NCBI RefSeq assembly: GCF_016862635.1
Contig: NZ_BONI01000034.1
Coordinates: 1 to 64,000, forward strand
Direction of reading: 5' to 3'
DNA length: 64,000 nt
From: Catellatospora coxensis
GTDB taxonomy: Bacteria > Actinomycetota > Actinomycetes > Mycobacteriales > Micromonosporaceae
This document shows, piece after piece, positions 10,061 to 19,519 of the stretch. A program made the translations under genes and the position numbers. Positions within the stretch are counted from its first letter, which is position 1. Each line of letters opens with the position of its first letter. The notes under the pieces were generated by a model. It searched no databases, had not been told where the DNA came from, and saw nothing but the letters and a program-made list of their open reading frames with translations.

Positions 10061-11023
10061 CTACTCGAACAGCGTGGCCAGCCAGTCCACCGGGGTCAGC
10101 GACGCGGGGGCACGGCCCTCGCGGGCGAAGTGGTTCGCCCAGCGGCGCGCGTTCTCGTTGTACGGCGCGGCCAGCTTGTGCAGGCGTGCCAGCAGCACGA
10201 TCTCGCCGCTGAGGAAGTCGGCCTCGATGTGGCCGGTGCCCCGGGCCAGGCTCTGCCACGACGAACCGCCGCCGCGCGAGTCGGCGACCGCCGCCTTGAG
10301 GATGTCGGCCCGGCGCGCGTCGTCCTCGTCCTCCGGGGTGTACGCGATCCCGGCCGCGTCCAGCACCGCCGCCGCCTCGGCCCGGATCCGCCCCACGATC
10401 TCCCGGACCCCGGCGGCCCGCCCGCACACCGCGTCAACCGCGTTGCCGACGTTGCGCAGCAGCTTGCCGTACTTCCAGCGCATGATGTCCGGGCGCGGCA
10501 CGCTCTCGTATCCGGCCTTGCGGAAGGCCGCGGCGATCGCCTCTGCGGCCGAGTCGGCACCGGACGGGAAGCGGCCGATGTCGAGCAGCCCCGGGACGGG
10601 GTGGCAGTCGGCCCGGACGACGCCGGGCGTCAGGTGGGTCGTCGGCGACATGACGCAGACGCCGTACACGTGCTCGAAGGCGCGCAGCGCCTGGCGCTCG
10701 TTGTCGACGCCGTTCTGCAGGCAGACGACGGGCGTGGCGGCGGGCGCGCAGGCGGCCAGCTCGCGCAGCGCCGCCTCGGTGTCCTGGCCCTTCACGCCGA
10801 GCAGCACGACGTCGCCGTCCTGCCACTCGATCTCCCCCGGCCCCGCGACGGCCGGCACGGCCATGGTGCGCGAGCCGGTGGCGTCCTCCAGGGTCAGCCC
10901 GTGGTCGCGGATCGCGGCGAGGTGTGCGCCGCGGGCGATGAGGACCACCTGCTGCCCGGACAGGTGAAGGTAGGCGCCGAGCACGCCACCGACCGCGCCT
11001 GCCCCATAAACGATGAACCGCAT
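10061..11023 (-). CDS. 2-dehydropantoate 2-reductase-like protein (ApbA/PanE family)
   Basis: 320 residues. The Rossmann motif GAGAVGG sits at 7-13, QNGVDN at 103-108 and the KYGKLL segment with the catalytic-type lysine (Lys184 or Lys187) in the C-terminal helical domain. The family reduces ketopantoate to pantoate with NADPH in coenzyme A synthesis, but many actinobacterial paralogs act on other 2-keto acids. No pan genes are adjacent, so a true PanE role is not assured. TAGGTT lies 6 nt before the ATG, suggesting a leaderless message. Confidence 0.82.
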   Translation of the reverse strand: MRFIVYGAGAVGGVLGAYLHLSGQQVVLIARGAHLAAIRDHGLTLEDATGSRTMAVPAVAGPGEIEWQDGDVVLLGVKGQDTEAALRELAACAPAATPVVCLQNGVDNERQALRAFEHVYGVCVMSPTTHLTPGVVRADCHPVPGLLDIGRFPSGADSAAEAIAAAFRKAGYESVPRPDIMRWKYGKLLRNVGNAVDAVCGRAAGVREIVGRIRAEAAAVLDAAGIAYTPEDEDDARRADILKAAVADSRGGGSSWQSLARGTGHIEADFLSGEIVLLARLHKLAAPYNENARRWANHFAREGRAPASLTPVDWLATLFE

Positions 11024-11156: not shown

Positions 11157-11393
11157 TCATTCCGCCGGGTGGCCGCCGTCGCCTTCGACGATGATGTCCA
11201 TCTCGCCGTCCTGGGTGAGGTCGACCATGGTGACATCGGGCTGCCCGTCGCCGTTGGTGTCCGATTGGAACAGGTCGGCCTTGCCGTCGCCGTCGGTGTC
11301 GATCGCCCACAGGTCGGGCTGCCCGTCGCCGTTGGTGTCGAGCGCGAGGATCTCGTCGTGGCCGTCGCCGCGGGTCTGCACAGTCTCACTCAT
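11157..11393 (-). CDS. Small acidic protein of calcium-loop (DxDGD) repeats
   Basis: 78 residues with no signal peptide. It is built of tandem units: DTNGDGQPDLWAI, DTDGDGKADLFQS, DTNGDGQPDVTMV, then a degenerate DLTQDGEMDIIV. Each resembles the calcium loop of EF-hands, dockerins or thrombospondin type 3 repeats, with Asp/Asn at positions 1, 3, 5 and 9. Without flanking EF helices it may be a calcium-ordered chain. It starts at ATG 11393; the ribosome site is weak. It has a high density of Asp codons and ends 24 nt before the large palindrome. Function unknown. A cytosolic calcium buffer or sensor is a guess. Confidence 0.65.
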   Translation of the reverse strand: MSETVQTRGDGHDEILALDTNGDGQPDLWAIDTDGDGKADLFQSDTNGDGQPDVTMVDLTQDGEMDIIVEGDGGHPAE

Positions 11394-12829: not shown

Positions 12830-13762
12830 CTACCAGTCGGCCGCGCCGGTGAACGACGTCGACTCGGGGCGGTAGCCGAGCACCGCGCGGGCGGCGGTGA
12901 TGTCCAGCGTCCGCTCGACGGCGAGATGGCTGATCGCGTACCGGGTCAGGCGTGGTGGGCGCGGGGAGCGGGCCAGTCGGTACAGCGCTTCCACGACCGT
13001 GGCCACCGGCCACACAGCGGCGAGCGGCAGGTAGACCGGCCGGGCGTGGACGCCGCGGGCGGCCAGGATGGCGCGCAGCGCGTCGTCGAGCACGACGGGT
13101 GCGGCGTCGGTGACGTTGAAGACGCCCCGGTCCACCGGTCCGCAGGCGGCAAGTGTGCACGCCTGCACGACGTTGCCGATCGAGGTGAGGCTGATCGGCT
13201 GCCGGCCGTCGCCGACCGCGGGCAGTCTTCGGCCGCGCACCGCGGCCAGGACCCGGGGCAGCAGCGTCGTGTCGCCAGGCCCGTAGACGGCATGGGGGCG
13301 TAGCACGATCGCGGAACGGTCCGCGGCGAGCACAACCCGTTCGGCCTCGGCCTTGGACTGGCCGTAGGCGTTGAGGTACCGGCCGGCCGGGGCCTCGTTC
13401 TCGGTGGCCATGACCGTCGGCCGCCGGGGGTCGTACACGCTGACGGTGCTGACGTGCACGAACCGCGCATCGGGCCAGGTGGCCAGCGCGTGCCTGGTCC
13501 CGTCGACGTTCACGGCGAAGAACTCCCGGCGCGGCCCCCAGTCGGAGACGGTCCCCGCGCAGTGCACCACCGCGTCGGCGTCGGGCGCGTCGGCGAGCGG
13601 CCCGCCGGTCAGGTCCCACCGCCGGTACGCGGCCGCGCCGACGTGGCCGGGTGCGGGTGTGGGGCGGCGGCCGAAGCCGACGACCTCATGCCCCGCGGCG
13701 GACAGCGCGCGGCACACCGCGCCGCCGACGAAGCCGGACGCGCCGGTCACGGCGACCCTCAC
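12830..13762 (-). CDS. OleD-like NAD(P)-dependent reductase (extended SDR, 3beta-HSD type)
   Basis: 310 residues. The Rossmann motif TGASGFVGG (6-14) and active-site Ser105 with Tyr133-xxx-Lys137 (YGQSK) mark an active extended SDR. Its closest functional analogue by context is OleD/LstD/NltD, which reduces the beta-keto acid made by OleA to a beta-hydroxy acid. This is the last gene of a minus-strand operon: its GTG at 13762 overlaps the OleC-like stop by 4 nt. SDR sequence alone would allow other ketone substrates. The role assignment rests on the OleA/OleC neighbours. Confidence 0.8.
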   Translation of the reverse strand: MRVAVTGASGFVGGAVCRALSAAGHEVVGFGRRPTPAPGHVGAAAYRRWDLTGGPLADAPDADAVVHCAGTVSDWGPRREFFAVNVDGTRHALATWPDARFVHVSTVSVYDPRRPTVMATENEAPAGRYLNAYGQSKAEAERVVLAADRSAIVLRPHAVYGPGDTTLLPRVLAAVRGRRLPAVGDGRQPISLTSIGNVVQACTLAACGPVDRGVFNVTDAAPVVLDDALRAILAARGVHARPVYLPLAAVWPVATVVEALYRLARSPRPPRLTRYAISHLAVERTLDITAARAVLGYRPESTSFTGAADW

Positions 13763-15297
13763 CGGGTCACCGGGTCCGGCGTCGTCACCAGGTCGCGCAG
13801 CGCCGCGCGGTCGATCTTGTGCCCGCGACCCGAGCGGGGCAGGCGCGGCAGCACCACGATGTCGTCGGGCAGCGCGTCGTGGTCGATGATCCCGGGCAGC
13901 TCACGCCGCAGCCGGGCGGGCAGCGCGGCGGCCGGTTCCGGCCCGTCGGCGACGATCGCGAGCACGACCCGCTCGTCACCGTGTCCGGGGTCGGGCACCC
14001 CGACATAGGCGGCGTCGGCCACTCCGGGCAGCGCGGTCACCGCGGGTTCGTAGAGTCCTGGATAGAGGTTGAACGAGCCGCGGATGAGCATGTCCTTCTT
14101 GCGGCCGAGCAGCACCAGGCGGCCCGAGGAGTCGAGGCGGGCCAGGTCGCCGGTCGGCAGCCAGGGTGACGGCGGCTCGCCGAGGTAGCCGGGGCTGCGG
14201 TTCGGCCCGGCGAGCAGCAGCTCGCCGTCGTCGGCCGGCCGGGTCCTGACTCCGGGCAGGGGCGCGCCGAGCAGGTCGCCGGTGTGTCCCTGCTCGACGT
14301 GGGCGATCTTGTCGGCGGCCGTGGCGATGGCGACGGGCAGCATCTCGGTCATCGCGTACACCGACAGCACTTCGGCGTGCGGGGCGGCCGCGACGGCCCG
14401 GCGCAGCACCCCGGCGGGTGCGGGCGCGGAGCCGAGCAGGATGTGCCGCAGGCTCGGCGACAGCGGGCCCGGGGCCGCGTCGAGGACCTCGGCCAGCCGC
14501 ACCGGCACGCAGTACGTGTGGGTCGCCTGCCGCTGCCGTAGGTGCTCGCGGAACAGGGCCGCCGAGCCGGTCAGCGGCGGCAGCGACCAGCGGGCCCCGG
14601 AGGCGAGCGTGGGCAGGCCGAGCATGAGCTGGTCGGTGTGCACGACGTCGCCGGGGCCGAGCGGCACGCGTTCGCGCAGCAGCCCGAGCGCCGCCGACAG
14701 CGACGCCCCGGTGTGCACCACGGCACGCGGGTGGGCGGTGGTGCCGGAGGTGAAGATGACCGCGGCGGGGGCGTCCGGGTCGGTCGCCGACTCCGGCTCG
14801 ACCGGCTGCGCGGTGAGCAGCTTGTTCAGCGCCAGCGCACCGGGCGGCACGCCGGGCAGCCATCGTCCGGTGTAGACGTGGCGGGCCACGTCGAGCGCGG
14901 ACAGGTTCGGCAGCAGCAGGCCGCGGCGACGGGCGTACGCGCGGACCGGGCCGAGCCGGCTCGCCGCGTACAGCAGGGCTTCGGCGGCCGACCAGCGCGG
15001 ACGGGCCAGCCGCATGCGGGCGGTGAACATCTCCGGTCCCGCGCCCGGGTCAGCGAAGATCACGCACCCGCCCGCGGCGACCACGGCGATGGCCAGCACC
15101 AGCGACTCCGGTGACGGGCGTACCGAGAACAGCACCCCGTCGCCGGGGCGCAGCCCGTGCTCGCGCAGCCCGTGGCGCACCGACAGCACCTGCCGGCGCA
15201 GCTCGCCGTAGCTCAGCTCCGCACCGTCCCCCGCGACCAGCGCCACCGCCGACGGGGTCCGCCCCGCCTGCCCCAGCACCTCCTCCACCAGGCTCAC
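13759..15297 (-). CDS. OleC-like AMP-dependent acid ligase (candidate beta-lactone synthetase)
   Basis: 512 residues of the ANL superfamily. Core motifs: A3 FTSGTTAHPR (182-191, with Ala where Gly is usual), A5 YAMTE (314-318) followed by MLPVAI as in OleC relatives, A7 TGDLARLD, A8 GRKKDMLIR and the C-terminal Lys494 in RGHKIDR. OleC adenylates a beta-hydroxy acid and closes it to a beta-lactone without CoA. No carrier-protein gene accompanies it, which agrees with OleC rather than a polyketide-loading ligase. The GTG start overlaps the upstream 19-codon gene by GTGA, and its stop overlaps the OleD-like start. A plain fatty-acyl ligase is the alternative. Confidence 0.78.
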   Translation of the reverse strand: MSLVEEVLGQAGRTPSAVALVAGDGAELSYGELRRQVLSVRHGLREHGLRPGDGVLFSVRPSPESLVLAIAVVAAGGCVIFADPGAGPEMFTARMRLARPRWSAAEALLYAASRLGPVRAYARRRGLLLPNLSALDVARHVYTGRWLPGVPPGALALNKLLTAQPVEPESATDPDAPAAVIFTSGTTAHPRAVVHTGASLSAALGLLRERVPLGPGDVVHTDQLMLGLPTLASGARWSLPPLTGSAALFREHLRQRQATHTYCVPVRLAEVLDAAPGPLSPSLRHILLGSAPAPAGVLRRAVAAAPHAEVLSVYAMTEMLPVAIATAADKIAHVEQGHTGDLLGAPLPGVRTRPADDGELLLAGPNRSPGYLGEPPSPWLPTGDLARLDSSGRLVLLGRKKDMLIRGSFNLYPGLYEPAVTALPGVADAAYVGVPDPGHGDERVVLAIVADGPEPAAALPARLRRELPGIIDHDALPDDIVVLPRLPRSGRGHKIDRAALRDLVTTPDPVTR

Positions 15298-15353
15298 CCG
15301 CCCACCTCCGGGGCCTGGGCGACCTGCATTTTCGGGGAGACTGACGGGCTCAT
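15294..15353 (-). CDS. 19-residue peptide gene bridging P450 and OleC-like genes
   Basis: A complete frame encoding MSPSVSPKMQVAQAPEVGG. Its ATG overlaps the P450 stop (ATGA at 15353-15350) and its TGA overlaps the GTG of the ligase gene (GTGA at 15297-15294). Such exact double overlap is the spacing used throughout this operon, so ribosomes ending the P450 would read this peptide and pass on to the ligase. It may serve only translational coupling, or be a small functional peptide. It lacks features of a RiPP core (no Cys, Ser/Thr only at the N-terminus). Confidence 0.5.
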   Translation of the reverse strand: MSPSVSPKMQVAQAPEVGG

Positions 15354-16501
15354 CGGGTCACCACCAGTTCGCGGTAGGTCGGGATCAGGACGCCGCGGGC
15401 TGCGCTGCGGCGCACGATGCGCAGGGGTGCGGCGGACAGGATGGTCGCGGCGACCGCGCGGATCTCGGCCATGGCCAGCGGGTAGCCGATGCAGAAGTGC
15501 GGGCCCGCGCCGAACCACAGCCGCCGCAGTTCCGGTGGGTGCGGACGGTCCAGGTCGAACGGTCCGTACGCCTGGCAGCAGTTGTGCGTCGCGAGCAGCA
15601 CCCGGTCCCCCGGCCGGACGGGGACGTCGCCGATCGCGGTCTCGGCGTGCACGCTGCGCAGCATCATCGGGGTGGGGGTGCTCACCCGCATGGCCTCGTC
15701 GATCGCGGGGTCGAGCAGCGCGGGGTCGGCGGCGACGCGGTCGAACTGCCCGGCGTCGTGCAGCAGGGCGATCAGGCGCGGGACCAGCGTCGCGACGGTC
15801 TCGGTGCCGGTGAGGAAGAACGCGCCCGCCGCGCCGCGCGCCTCGGCCTCGGAGATGCCGAGTTCGCGCATTCGGCCCATCACGGTGCTCTGGTCGCCAG
15901 CCAGGTAGGCGCGTGCCGCGATCTCGCCGACCGGTTCCAGGACCTCGCGGGCACGGCGGGCCTGCGCCGGGGGCAGCGTCCGGGTGCGCAGGGTCACCAT
16001 GGACACGATCTGCTCGCCCCGGTGGAACATCTGCCGGTGGTCGTCCTCCGAGCGCGACTCCAGCCCGACGACGGCGCAGATGACCGCGCCCGCCATCACC
16101 CGCATGGTGTCGACCAGGTCCACGGGTTCGCCGCGGCCGAGCCGCCCGGACAGTGCCGCCAGCGGCTCGGCCAGGACCTGCGCGCAGAGCCGGTCGGCGT
16201 AGCCGGGGGTGAACAGCTCGGCGAGTCTGGCGCGCAGTGCCCGGTGCGCCGGGCCCTCCATGTTGAGCAGCACCGACGGACCGAGGATCGGGGTCCACAG
16301 GTCGCCGGACGAGCCGGGGCCGTCCTTGCGGAACGTCTCCCCGTCGAGCAGGACCTGCCGGGCCAGGGCCGCGTCGTTGACGACGACGCCGAGGCCGGGC
16401 ACCCGCACGACCGGCCCGCGCCGGGCCAGCAGCCGCAGCAGCGGGTACGCGAACGGGTGCGCGCGCCGGTAGAGCCGGCGCTCCCAGGTGCCGGGGTTCA
16501 C
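15350..16501 (-). CDS. Cytochrome P450 (first of two in the ole-like cluster)
   Basis: 383 residues, soluble bacterial class. The heme loop is FGAGPHFCIG with Cys337, the I-helix has FFLTGTETVATL and the K-helix has EAMRVSTP. A C-helix EGPAHRALRARL is present. It hydroxylates or otherwise oxidises an unknown substrate with electrons from ferredoxin. The GTG start at 16501 overlaps the glycosyltransferase stop by GTGA. It is a paralog of the divergent P450 at 18332-19519: both begin with VxLPxLGxVVxDxxLARxVL-like sequence and end with VLxPTYxxL. Operon position suggests tailoring of the OleA/C/D product. Confidence 0.9.
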   Translation of the reverse strand: MNPGTWERRLYRRAHPFAYPLLRLLARRGPVVRVPGLGVVVNDAALARQVLLDGETFRKDGPGSSGDLWTPILGPSVLLNMEGPAHRALRARLAELFTPGYADRLCAQVLAEPLAALSGRLGRGEPVDLVDTMRVMAGAVICAVVGLESRSEDDHRQMFHRGEQIVSMVTLRTRTLPPAQARRAREVLEPVGEIAARAYLAGDQSTVMGRMRELGISEAEARGAAGAFFLTGTETVATLVPRLIALLHDAGQFDRVAADPALLDPAIDEAMRVSTPTPMMLRSVHAETAIGDVPVRPGDRVLLATHNCCQAYGPFDLDRPHPPELRRLWFGAGPHFCIGYPLAMAEIRAVAATILSAAPLRIVRRSAARGVLIPTYRELVVTR

Positions 16502-17247
16502 CGGATGTCCACCCGGTCCGGGGTGTAGCGGTGGTCGGCGTACCAGGCCAGGGTGCCGACTAGGCCGTACGCGCGCAGCCGCCGGACCGAGCCGTGCACC
16601 AGCACGTCGCGGCGCAGGCCGTAGTCGCGGGTGAGGCGGCGGACCCGGTTGACCAGTGCCCGGTCCTCGTGCACGTCCTCGATGCGGGTGCGGGGGAAGC
16701 CGCCCGCGGCCTCGTACAGCTCGGCGGTGATGGCGAGGTTGCAGCCCGGCATCATCACGTACGGGCCGAGGTACGCGGCGTCGCGGTTGCCGGGCCGGAA
16801 ACGGCCGAACGTCGCCGCGATCGACACCACGGCGGGCAGCAGCCGCCGTTCCCACCAGCGCAGCGGGAACTCGTCGGCACGGGGCCGCAGCGGGCCGCTG
16901 AGCATGCGCAGCCCGTCGGCGAAGCCGCGGCGCACCGCGGCGGTCCAGCCGGGCGCGGGCAGGCAGTCGGCGTCGGTGCGGGCCAGCAGCGTCGCACCGT
17001 GGGCGATGGCGTGCCGCATGCCGGTGTCGGCGGCCGCGCCGGTGCCCTTCACCGGTTCGGTGATCACGTGCAGGTCGAGGCGGTCGGCGAACCCGGCGGC
17101 GATCTCCGCGGTCGCGTCGGTGCTGCCGTTGTCGACCACGACCACCGTGAACGCGCCGTCGGTCTGCTCGGTCAGCCGCTGCAGCGTCGCCCCGATGGAG
17201 CGCTGCTCGTCGTACGCGGGGATGACGACCCAGAGGTGGTGGCCCAT
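16498..17247 (-). CDS. Family 2 glycosyltransferase
   Basis: 249 residues, GT-A fold. VVIPAYDEQRSIGATL opens the fold, VVVVDNGSTDATAEIA is the nucleotide site, ARTDADCLPAP carries the DxD motif, and EDVHEDRALVNRV has the ED acceptor-base region. There are no clear membrane helices, so it is cytosolic or peripheral. It sits between the OleA-like and P450 genes and overlaps both (1 nt and 4 nt). A glycosyltransferase is not part of known Ole, lipstatin or nocardiolactone pathways, so the end product here may be glycosylated. Alternatively it makes the acyl acceptor. Confidence 0.85.
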   Translation of the reverse strand: MGHHLWVVIPAYDEQRSIGATLQRLTEQTDGAFTVVVVDNGSTDATAEIAAGFADRLDLHVITEPVKGTGAAADTGMRHAIAHGATLLARTDADCLPAPGWTAAVRRGFADGLRMLSGPLRPRADEFPLRWWERRLLPAVVSIAATFGRFRPGNRDAAYLGPYVMMPGCNLAITAELYEAAGGFPRTRIEDVHEDRALVNRVRRLTRDYGLRRDVLVHGSVRRLRAYGLVGTLAWYADHRYTPDRVDIR

Positions 17248-18248
17248 CACAGCTCCGCGAACATGACGCCGAGGCTGACCCCGCCGGCCAGGCCGATCAG
17301 CGCGACCCGGTCGCCGGGGCCGCACCGCCCGTCCTGGATCGCGGTCGCCAGCTGCAGGGGCAGCGTGACGCTGGCCAGGTTGCCGTGCTCGGGCAGGGTG
17401 ACCACGAGCCGGTCCGCCGGGACGCCCAGGCCCGCCCGCAGCTGCTCCAGGTAGGGCAGCGCGACCTGGTGCACGGCCACGACGGCGAAGTCGTCCCAGG
17501 TCAGGCCGGTGTCGCCGAGCGCCTCCAGGAACAGCCGGGCGCCGTTGCGCACGAACACGTCACGCAGCCGCCGCCCGTCGCCGCTGAAGTACGTCGCGTC
17601 GGGGTCGCGCGGGCGCATGGTGCCGCCGGCGGGCAGGGTGCCCACGTCCCAGGCGGTGGAGTCGGCGGCGAAACGCCGGTGGAAGATCCCGCCCGAGGCG
17701 GCCGCTTCGAGCAGCATCGCCGCCCCGCCGTCGGACAGGGTGTAGCCGGCGAACGCGTCGATGAACTGGGCCCGGTCGCGCACCTGCCAGCGGATCGCCC
17801 GCGACGGCACCTCGCCGGAGCAGACCAGCACCCGCCGGTGCTGCCCGGTGACGATCAGGGCCTCGGCGAGCTGGATAGCGTTGAGGAAGCTGTTGCAGGC
17901 GTTCTTCACGTCGAAGACCGGGCAGCTCGCGCCGAGCTTGGCGGCCACGATGTGCGCGGTCGCGGGTTCGATCAGGTCCTGCGACGCCGACCCGAAGACG
18001 ATCAGGTCCACGTCGGCGGCGGCCAGGCCGTGCCCGGCGAGCAGCTTGTCCGCGGCGGCGACGGCCAGGTCGGAGGCCTGCACGTCGTCTGCGGCGTAGT
18101 GCCGGCGCCGGATGCCGGTCAGCCGCTCCACGATGGAGGCGTGCGGGACGAACCCGGGACTGTGCTCGGCGATACGGCGCTCCACCTGCGCACTGCTGAG
18201 CAGCGCGGGCGGCAGGTGCGCCTCCACCCCGACGATCCTGGCTCTCAT
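17247..18248 (-). CDS. OleA-like ketosynthase III (head-to-head acyl condensing enzyme)
   Basis: 333 residues, thiolase fold. The triad is Cys118 (VKNACNSF), His260 (VAVHQVAL) and Asn290 (EHGNLAS). Glu94 in LIEPATAH lies 24 residues before the Cys, close to where OleA carries its catalytic Glu117; housekeeping FabH has no Glu there. OleA joins two fatty acyl-CoAs to a beta-keto acid. It is the first gene of the operon; ATG 18248 has an AGGAGGTG ribosome site, the best in the cluster. A FabH-like priming synthase is the alternative, but absence of acyl carrier and other fatty-acid genes argues against it. Confidence 0.82.
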   Translation of the reverse strand: MRARIVGVEAHLPPALLSSAQVERRIAEHSPGFVPHASIVERLTGIRRRHYAADDVQASDLAVAAADKLLAGHGLAAADVDLIVFGSASQDLIEPATAHIVAAKLGASCPVFDVKNACNSFLNAIQLAEALIVTGQHRRVLVCSGEVPSRAIRWQVRDRAQFIDAFAGYTLSDGGAAMLLEAAASGGIFHRRFAADSTAWDVGTLPAGGTMRPRDPDATYFSGDGRRLRDVFVRNGARLFLEALGDTGLTWDDFAVVAVHQVALPYLEQLRAGLGVPADRLVVTLPEHGNLASVTLPLQLATAIQDGRCGPGDRVALIGLAGGVSLGVMFAEL

Positions 18249-18331
18249 CACACCTCCTGCACGGCCGGGACGCCCGGCTACGGGCGGTCCGGCATGGCCT
18301 ACCATCTGTGCACGGTAGTCGGAGGGCGAAA

Positions 18332-19519
18332 ATGCTTCACGGTCCGGTGACGGAGGACGCACAGGCCCGCAGGCACGAGGCGCGGCTGCTGCGGGCGGGC
18401 AACCCGGCGCTGTGGGCGCTGCTGACGGTCGGGCGGGTGCTCGGGCCGCTGGTGCGGCTGCCCCGGCTCGGCTGGGTGGTGACAGACCCGGTGCTGGCCC
18501 GGCGCGTCCTCAACGATCCCGCGTTCAGCATGGTCGGCGAGGGCGGCGTCGGCGACCTGTGGGGTCAGCTGTTCGGGGCCGAGTTCGCGTCGTTCTTCGC
18601 CGGGGCCCGCCACGCCGAGCTGCGCTCGCTGGCCCGGGACCTGTTCACCGAGGACAGCGCGCGGCGGCTGGTCGATCGGGTGCAGGGCCCGCATCACGCG
18701 CGGCTGCGCGCCCGGCTGGCGGCGGGCGAGGAGGTGGATCTGGCGGCGGTGGTCCGCATGACATCGGCGTACACCGTCGCCGACCTGCTCGGGGTGACCG
18801 TGTCCGATGACGAGGCGGCGCTGGCGCTGTTCGCCTCCGCGGAGCGGCTGGCGGCCCTCGCCCTGGGCACGCAGGCGTCGACGGCGCTCGCGCCCGAGGT
18901 GATCGCGAAGGCGGGCGGGCTGGTCGAGGCGATCACCGGCGACGTCGAGCGGGCCTACCGCACCGGTGGCCCGGACACCATCCTGGGCCGCAGCCGTGGG
19001 CTGGACCTGGGGCTCGACCTGGCGAGAGGGCTCACCACGCTGCTGGTGATCGCGGGCACGGAGACGGGCGCGTCGTCGCTGACCCGGACCGTGGCGCTGC
19101 TGCACGACACCGGCCAGCAGCACCGGCTGCTGGCCGACCCGGCGCTGACCGCCAACGCCGTGCGGGAGGGCCTGCGGGTGACCACGCCCGCGCCGGTGAT
19201 CGGGCGGCACATCGCCCGCGACACCGAGATCGACGGGCGGCGGCTGCGCCGCGACGGCCGGGTGATGATGCTGACCTACGTCGCGGACAACAAGGCCGGG
19301 CCGTTCGACATCACCCGCGAGTACGTGCCGGAGACGCGGCAGCTGTGGTTCGGCGCGGGTCGGCACCTGTGCCTGGGCGCGGCGGTGGCCCGGGTCCAGC
19401 TGACCCGGCTGCTGGAGACGCTGACCGCCGACGGGCGGCCGTGGCAGGTGGTGTCGCGCGCTCCGGCGCGGCGGGTGCTCGTGCCGACGTACGAGTCGCT
19501 GCGCATCCGTACGGCCTGA
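18332..19519 (+). CDS. Cytochrome P450 (second, divergent)
   Basis: 395 residues. The heme loop is FGAGRHLCLG (Cys347), the I-helix LLVIAGTETGASSL and the K-helix EGLRVTTPAP. The ATG at 18332 follows GGAGGGCG. It diverges from the OleA-like gene across an 83-nt shared promoter region and is a paralog of the operon P450. The pair may have arisen by duplication to oxidise successive positions of one molecule. No ferredoxin gene is nearby, so redox partners come from elsewhere. Confidence 0.9.
   Translation: MLHGPVTEDAQARRHEARLLRAGNPALWALLTVGRVLGPLVRLPRLGWVVTDPVLARRVLNDPAFSMVGEGGVGDLWGQLFGAEFASFFAGARHAELRSLARDLFTEDSARRLVDRVQGPHHARLRARLAAGEEVDLAAVVRMTSAYTVADLLGVTVSDDEAALALFASAERLAALALGTQASTALAPEVIAKAGGLVEAITGDVERAYRTGGPDTILGRSRGLDLGLDLARGLTTLLVIAGTETGASSLTRTVALLHDTGQQHRLLADPALTANAVREGLRVTTPAPVIGRHIARDTEIDGRRLRRDGRVMMLTYVADNKAGPFDITREYVPETRQLWFGAGRHLCLGAAVARVQLTRLLETLTADGRPWQVVSRAPARRVLVPTYESLRIRTA

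Follow-up and report, generated by a model that had tools for sequence, protein, structure and literature searches.

Head-to-head condensation, a reduction and an adenylate-forming enzyme of the ANL superfamily are combined, without OleB, in the gene clusters for lipstatin (lst) and nocardiolactone (nlt). Here we describe a related operon of the actinomycete Catellatospora coxensis (assembly GCF_016862635.1, genome size 9.35 Mb), located in a stretch of 64,000 nucleotides (contig NZ_BONI01000034.1, positions 1 to 64,000) which is referred to below as the window. With the OleABCD pathway the operon shares a β-ketoacyl-(acyl carrier protein) synthase III (KAS) of OleA type with its glutamate, an OleD-like short-chain dehydrogenase/reductase (SDR) and an ANL enzyme in the role of OleC. 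It differs from that pathway in having no clear OleB, in a ligase from a sister family of OleC, here termed LIG, and in the addition of a family 2 glycosyltransferase (GT2) and cytochrome P450s. We regard it as an Ole-like operon for a lipid that lacks OleB and varies the OleACD theme by a ligase family of its own. Unlike the lipstatin cluster, the window operon has no gene for a nonribosomal peptide synthetase. LstA and LstB are KAS proteins that pair as a heterodimer in which neither can be missed, with an essential glutamate in LstB (PMC12141560); unlike this pair, the window has a single KAS which holds both the cysteine and the glutamate.

A closely similar gene set has been reported from Actinoplanes atraurantiacus (mBio 2020, PMC7064751). 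That paper lists OleA, a glycosyltransferase, OleC, a P450 and OleD in a genome without oleB, predicts a hydroxylated, glycosylated β-lactone from this region and reports that the Actinoplanes OleA is active on p-nitrophenyl hexanoate in Escherichia coli cells. The same gene set having been described and the same product class predicted there, the statement of the original prediction that such a product was not known to be described has to be withdrawn as far as prediction is concerned. Several Micromonosporaceae loci compared here, L163, L165 and L168 among them, have the gene order listed in the paper (L-numbers are the labels of the loci compared in this work). From this order and from taxonomy we infer that the Actinoplanes ligase called OleC in the paper belongs to LIG. 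Compared with loci of the Actinoplanes order, the window has the ligase and the operon P450 (P450a) swapped and an extra, divergent P450 (P450b), and its KAS is 43-50% identical to theirs. A search by titles and the beginnings of abstracts, in which subscription literature is thinly covered, found no isolated product of the gene set and no further account of it. New in this study are the recognition of LIG as a sister family, the exclusion between LIG and OleC, the wide spread of the gene set and the link of the KAS family to OleBCD loci.

As the best overall explanation, to which we give about even credence, the operon encodes a lipid pathway of the OleA/OleD type with lactone closure by LIG, oxidation and glycosylation. 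The KAS would join a pair of fatty acyl thioesters in a head-to-head, non-decarboxylative condensation to a 2-alkyl-3-oxoacid, and the SDR would reduce this to the 2-alkyl-3-hydroxyacid. Both the OleA-type condensation and the OleD-type reduction are highly probable, judged from the protein sequences. The carboxyl group would then be adenylated by LIG, and the adjacent 3-hydroxyl would most likely close on it to give a β-lactone, as with OleC. In either order, one or two P450s may hydroxylate an acyl chain and the GT2 may add a sugar from a nucleotide donor to a hydroxyl. Lack of OleB suggests that the lactone, or a derivative of it, is kept. Glycosylation of the product is likely; whether the product is a β-lactone we consider evenly balanced. 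Of the pathway originally proposed, a plausible one, the OleA-type KAS, the OleD-like SDR and the missing OleB are retained; its ligase proved not to be OleC, and the lactone closure is a conjecture.

The KAS gene (17247..18251, minus strand) encodes Cys118, His260 and Asn290 together with Glu94, exactly the residues named beforehand (numbered from the ATG at 18248; counting from the preceding GTG adds one). Relatives of this protein were taken from three sources. In named genomes we found 218 KAS relatives and compared the loci of the best 80. The family sample comprises 20 loci out of 102 Micromonosporaceae genomes with a KAS match, and the class sample 20 of the 34 matches that the class yielded, from 33 genomes. 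Both samples were hand-picked, mostly among the more distant matches, and the C. coxensis genome is counted in the totals. The column of OleA Glu117 holds glutamate in the window KAS, in 80/80 relatives, in 20/20 proteins of the family sample and in 14/14 OleA rows, and in none of seven other KAS-III-like proteins (three FabH from the PDB and four from this genome). The asparagine of an Asn-Ala-Cys motif divides the rows in the same way. The complete Cys-His-Asn triad plus glutamate was found in the window KAS, all 80 relatives and all 20 members of each of the two samples. Within its own genome, the window KAS is the top match to an OleA profile, with 163 bits against at most 77.

The trees of KAS and SDR contain in effect three groups, and their root was not inferred; of the best 80 relatives, 18 entered the KAS tree, 14 the first ligase tree and 10 the SDR tree (L078_10 was dropped as too short). 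In the KAS tree, the window clade is separate from the classical OleA clade and from FabH. The KAS of L236 and L239-L242, which lie beside OleB-, OleC- and OleD-like genes, nest inside the window clade (support 98/96 and 100/100). The L177 KAS, which has OleC- and OleD-like genes as neighbours, nests within the second branch of the KAS family. This nesting of proteins linked to OleBCD-like loci is the strongest evidence that the window KAS may be expected to carry out head-to-head condensation. On the basis of the motif and the neighbouring genes we therefore class the window KAS as OleA type, in agreement with the original prediction, and the KAS family as a putative second OleA lineage that is paired with two kinds of ligase. 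The phylogeny for which the original prediction had called shows no grouping with FabH; an ordinary FabH was rejected on the tree, the glutamate column (0/7) and the rank in the OleA search. In L236 and L240-L242 the KAS adjoins a protein of 2490-2675 amino acids; that of L241, the only one scanned for domains, is a polyketide synthase (PKS) of the architecture KS-AT-DH-MT-ER-KR-ACP. The loci L236 and L239-L242 look like a PKS-fed hydrocarbon pathway.

The SDR gene (12830..13762, minus strand) encodes an extended SDR of the 2-alkyl-3-oxoacid reductase type. Its motifs TGxxGxxG and YxxxK are intact, as anticipated (TGASGFVG and Tyr133-x-x-x-Lys137). It is the top OleD match of its genome (154 bits against at most 98), with a score below the cut-off of 580 of the OleD profile NF042422, and in the tree it forms a sister clade to OleD (100/99) when compared with six other extended SDRs. 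We class it as OleD-like from these comparisons, as had been proposed.

The ligase gene (13759..15297, minus strand) encodes an ANL adenylate-forming enzyme. When 20 other ANL proteins are included in the tree, LIG groups with OleC (100/99), as it does in another wide tree. From one of these wider trees to the next eleven rows were dropped, six being duplicates; in both, LIG is sister to the OleC clade and stands outside it. A first ligase tree, with in effect three groups, could not place LIG nearer to either OleC or plain ligases. A grouping of LIG with FadD-type ligases, a group that was defined after inspection of the tree, is rejected (approximately unbiased test, p 0.0038). A FadD-type CoA ligase was discarded for this reason, and the phylogenetic check that the original prediction had asked for does not join the enzyme to FadD-type ligases. 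By sequence comparison we regard LIG as a family in its own right, sister to OleC. Alignment was obtained for 23 of 25 LIG stretches (A2). LIG has TSGTTxxPR at A3, with arginine replacing lysine, and keeps the lysine of A10. The YAMTE-MLP motif, originally read as OleC-like, is present in the window LIG. It is no firm mark of OleC, because the ligases of a second group of loci mostly read VYALTE-FPA.

The neighbourhood of the KAS genes separates the two ligases. We compared 120 loci (80 plus 20 plus 20; L181 repeats L030, so 119 are distinct) over 7.5 kb around the KAS: LIG was found in 105, OleC in six, neither in nine and both in none. The nine are L012, L029 (contig end), three Nonomuraea loci, L235, L237, L238 and L243. 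OleB accompanies five of the six OleC loci and none of the 105 LIG loci; a GT2 is present in 103/105 LIG loci and in 0/6 OleC loci. LIG and OleC are mutually exclusive beside the KAS family in these 120 loci, and by these counts LIG takes the place of OleC beside the same KAS family. A search of the C. coxensis genome found no clear OleB, in line with the original prediction. The best match of the genome search is 31-34% identical; located in L187, it reads FDFGG instead of HDWGG and has 25-31% identity to eight OleB domains, of which OleB_L113 shares 37-58% identity with the other seven. Lacking HDWGG and falling below the identity among OleB domains, L187 was rejected as the OleB of this genome.

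The five genes KAS, GT2, P450a, LIG and SDR are collinear in 73 of the 80 relatives (the best 80 of 218) for which the proposed synteny search was carried out. Chance assembly of the operon is excluded by this collinearity. Among the other seven loci, three from Nonomuraea have KAS, P450a and SDR only, one has LIG inverted, two are truncated at contig ends and a metagenomic one shows KAS and P450b alone. In the three Nonomuraea genomes that lack LIG beside the KAS, it is encoded elsewhere (best matches 58-63%), and LIG therefore stays with the pathway even when the operon splits; no GT2 of the family was found beside the ligase within the stretches compared of these Nonomuraea LIG loci (L247, L248 and L249). 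The KAS was detected at E <= 1e-40 in 102/300 Micromonosporaceae genomes, C. coxensis included; 11 of these matches have 60-100% identity and the other 91 have 43-50%. In the class, 33/394 genomes have the KAS, again including its own. The gene set spans Micromonosporaceae, Thermomonosporaceae, Streptosporangiaceae, Pseudonocardiaceae and a further genus with large genomes, which we take to be Streptomyces.

All six genes were located as the original prediction had them, and Pfam confirmed the class of each. The 1-4-nt overlaps it had described are found at three of the four operon junctions (KAS/GT2, GT2/P450a and LIG/SDR, 4 nt each); P450a and LIG are separated by a gap of 52 nt. P450b (18347..19519) lies on the plus strand, and the 95 nt between it and the KAS gene (18252..18346) presumably hold divergent promoters. 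A P450b gene is present in 41 of the 73 collinear loci, divergent in 39 and 3' of the SDR in two. P450a (15350..16501, minus strand) carries the heme motif FGAGPHFCIG and EAMR as ExxR, and P450b the heme motif FGAGRHLCLG; that the two are paralogous and divergently arranged was borne out, with 36% identity over 376 columns. Among rows with 330 residues or more, the heme cysteine motif is kept in all 95 of the P450a class and all 74 of the P450b class, classes that were assigned by best BLAST match and include some neighbouring unrelated P450s. It is also kept in 16/16 family-sample P450s and in three of four further P450-like proteins there; the fourth (L173_10), whose stretch consists in part of N and continues into the SDR, gave none. 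By a rough pattern search, 12/16 family-sample P450s and 70/95 P450a-class rows lack the usual I-helix motif [AG]GxxT; P450s without it still keep the heme cysteine, and the window P450a reads LTGTET. The GT2 (16498..17250, minus strand) is a soluble enzyme predicted to have a GT-A fold, its structure model lying near the fucosyltransferase WrtF. Alignment was obtained for 27 of 28 GT2 stretches (A1), and the RTDAD and HED motifs are invariant in 28 aligned rows. In L245 (9631-11586), a window-type operon, a GT2 and a P450 are fused in frame into one protein, which suggests consecutive steps. In L167 (4985-6424), L179 (11408-13003) and L244 (4394-5947), a second operon GT2 forms one protein with a BrkB membrane domain (PF03631); given these fusions, part of the glycosylation may take place at the membrane.

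Several observations weigh against the pathway as proposed. The Actinoplanes OleA, of which little was purified, was reported to be unreactive with C8-C16 acyl-CoAs (PMC7064751). The window KAS is only 27% identical to OleA of X. campestris (329 columns), and it scores slightly higher on the generic KAS III model PRK09352 (177 bits) than on the OleA-type model PRK09258 (162 bits, cut-off 285; the reference OleA L113_4 reaches 408). Four loci out of the 20 in the class sample (L235, L237, L238 and L243, the last ending at a contig end) have the KAS with neither LIG nor OleC nearby, and the KAS family is therefore not always found in an Ole setting. In L235 it adjoins ACP-like and KAS-II-like genes, and in L237 and L243 large PKS genes. 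The KAS could accordingly be FabH-like, polyketide-priming or pyrone-making, its resemblance to OleA superficial. The profile scores, the place of the clade apart from classical OleA and the L235, L237 and L243 loci, with their ACP, KAS II or PKS genes and no Ole partner, are what such an enzyme would show, and pyrone synthases of the PpyS type also carry the glutamate. However, the glutamate is absent from the seven FabH and other KAS-III-like proteins compared, the L241 KAS, beside OleBCD-like genes, has equally mixed scores (148 bits on PRK09258, against 143), and the operon holds an OleD-like SDR, so that we consider a FabH-like, priming or pyrone-making role very unlikely. Nearly as improbable is a function of one P450-like protein as a glycosyltransferase helper in place of an oxygenase. 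Both P450s match TIGR04515, the model of P450-derived glycosyltransferase activators, with 73.6 and 49 bits, well below its cut-off of 343, and the L245 fusion would suit such a helper. Known activators of this kind, however, have lost the heme motif and serve glycosyltransferases of another family, and the heme cysteine is conserved in all rows of the two P450 classes and in the 16 family-sample P450s described above.

The remaining objections concern LIG. On the OleC model NF045786 (Xanthomonas-type, cut-off 900) it scores 75.6 bits; the cut-off is strict, since the reference OleC of L113, an oleABCD locus, itself scores 538.6, yet the gap between LIG and OleC is real. LIG ranks only ninth among the OleC matches of its own genome. 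Its A8 motif is like that of CoA ligases (GRKKDM..R..N.YPGLYEP), with RxKD at a place where the OleC rows have none, and PVDxRHNAK, which most of these rows show at A10, is absent from LIG. For these reasons, and for its place in the tree, LIG was rejected as OleC proper, and of the OleC-type ligase in the original prediction there is left the nearest sampled relative of OleC. Even the sisterhood stands on long stems, and 16 of the 20 other ANL proteins come from one genome. Compared with the PDB, the LIG structure model is nearest to the amide-bond synthetase McbA and to aryl-adenylating enzymes, with top matches that score alike, so that the comparison did not separate ANL functions. On PRK09274 (cut-off 478) the window LIG reaches 132 bits and the L113 OleC 566.8; this model, the top one of the reference OleC, is also the best model of the L180 LIG; for the LIG of L165 and of the window, PRK06187, a model of long-chain ligases, gives the higher score. 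An OleA/OleD-like pathway in which LIG forms a CoA thioester, an ester or an amide, or supplies activated acyl precursors, is a credible if somewhat doubtful alternative. It would lead to a glycosylated, hydroxylated α-branched β-hydroxy fatty acid or ester, mycolic-acid-like in outline. The A8 motif, the arginine in A3, the low OleC score and the place outside the OleC clade agree with it, and the lack of OleB beside LIG in all 105 loci is as expected where there is no β-lactone to destroy. Against it, LIG is nearest to OleC and not to FadD-type enzymes among the sampled ANL proteins, and it fills the place of OleC beside the same KAS family.

Returning to the lactone pathway, we tentatively suggest a wider form of it: LIG may be a second family of β-lactone synthetases which excludes OleC and which, together with the distinct OleA lineage, makes an oxidised, glycosylated β-lactone serving as a general lipid or signal. 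The spread, too wide for a rare antibiotic, would suggest such a general actinomycete role. β-Lactones are covalent inhibitors of lipases and proteases, drug leads among them, and if the operon makes a β-lactone, a large unstudied group of these compounds exists in common actinomycetes. Searches based on OleC would miss such operons, because LIG is a separate family. If LIG does otherwise, it shows where on the ligase tree the OleC branch gained or lost β-lactone closure. Either way, a KAS family with two kinds of ligase offers a natural comparison for what decides the product.

Some further loci and a neighbouring gene deserve mention. L177 (8139-16013) contains a KAS, a P450, OleC- and OleD-like genes and a 1005-amino-acid protein with adenylation and peptidyl carrier domains (A-PCP), with no OleB or GT2 nearby; judged by its genes, it looks like a lipstatin-like set with a single KAS. 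The ligase of L115, which we take to be an nlt-like locus, groups with OleC and not with LIG. Beside its OleC- and OleD-type genes, a KAS-like protein (10078-11007) keeps the glutamate and has alanine in place of the catalytic cysteine, as would be expected of an LstB-like partner subunit. Close to the operon, positions 11157-11393 of the window encode a 78-amino-acid protein of repeated DTNGDGxPD-like motifs (FG-GAP-like), and the same repeat protein lies beside the operon in Catellatospora methionotrophica (L006).

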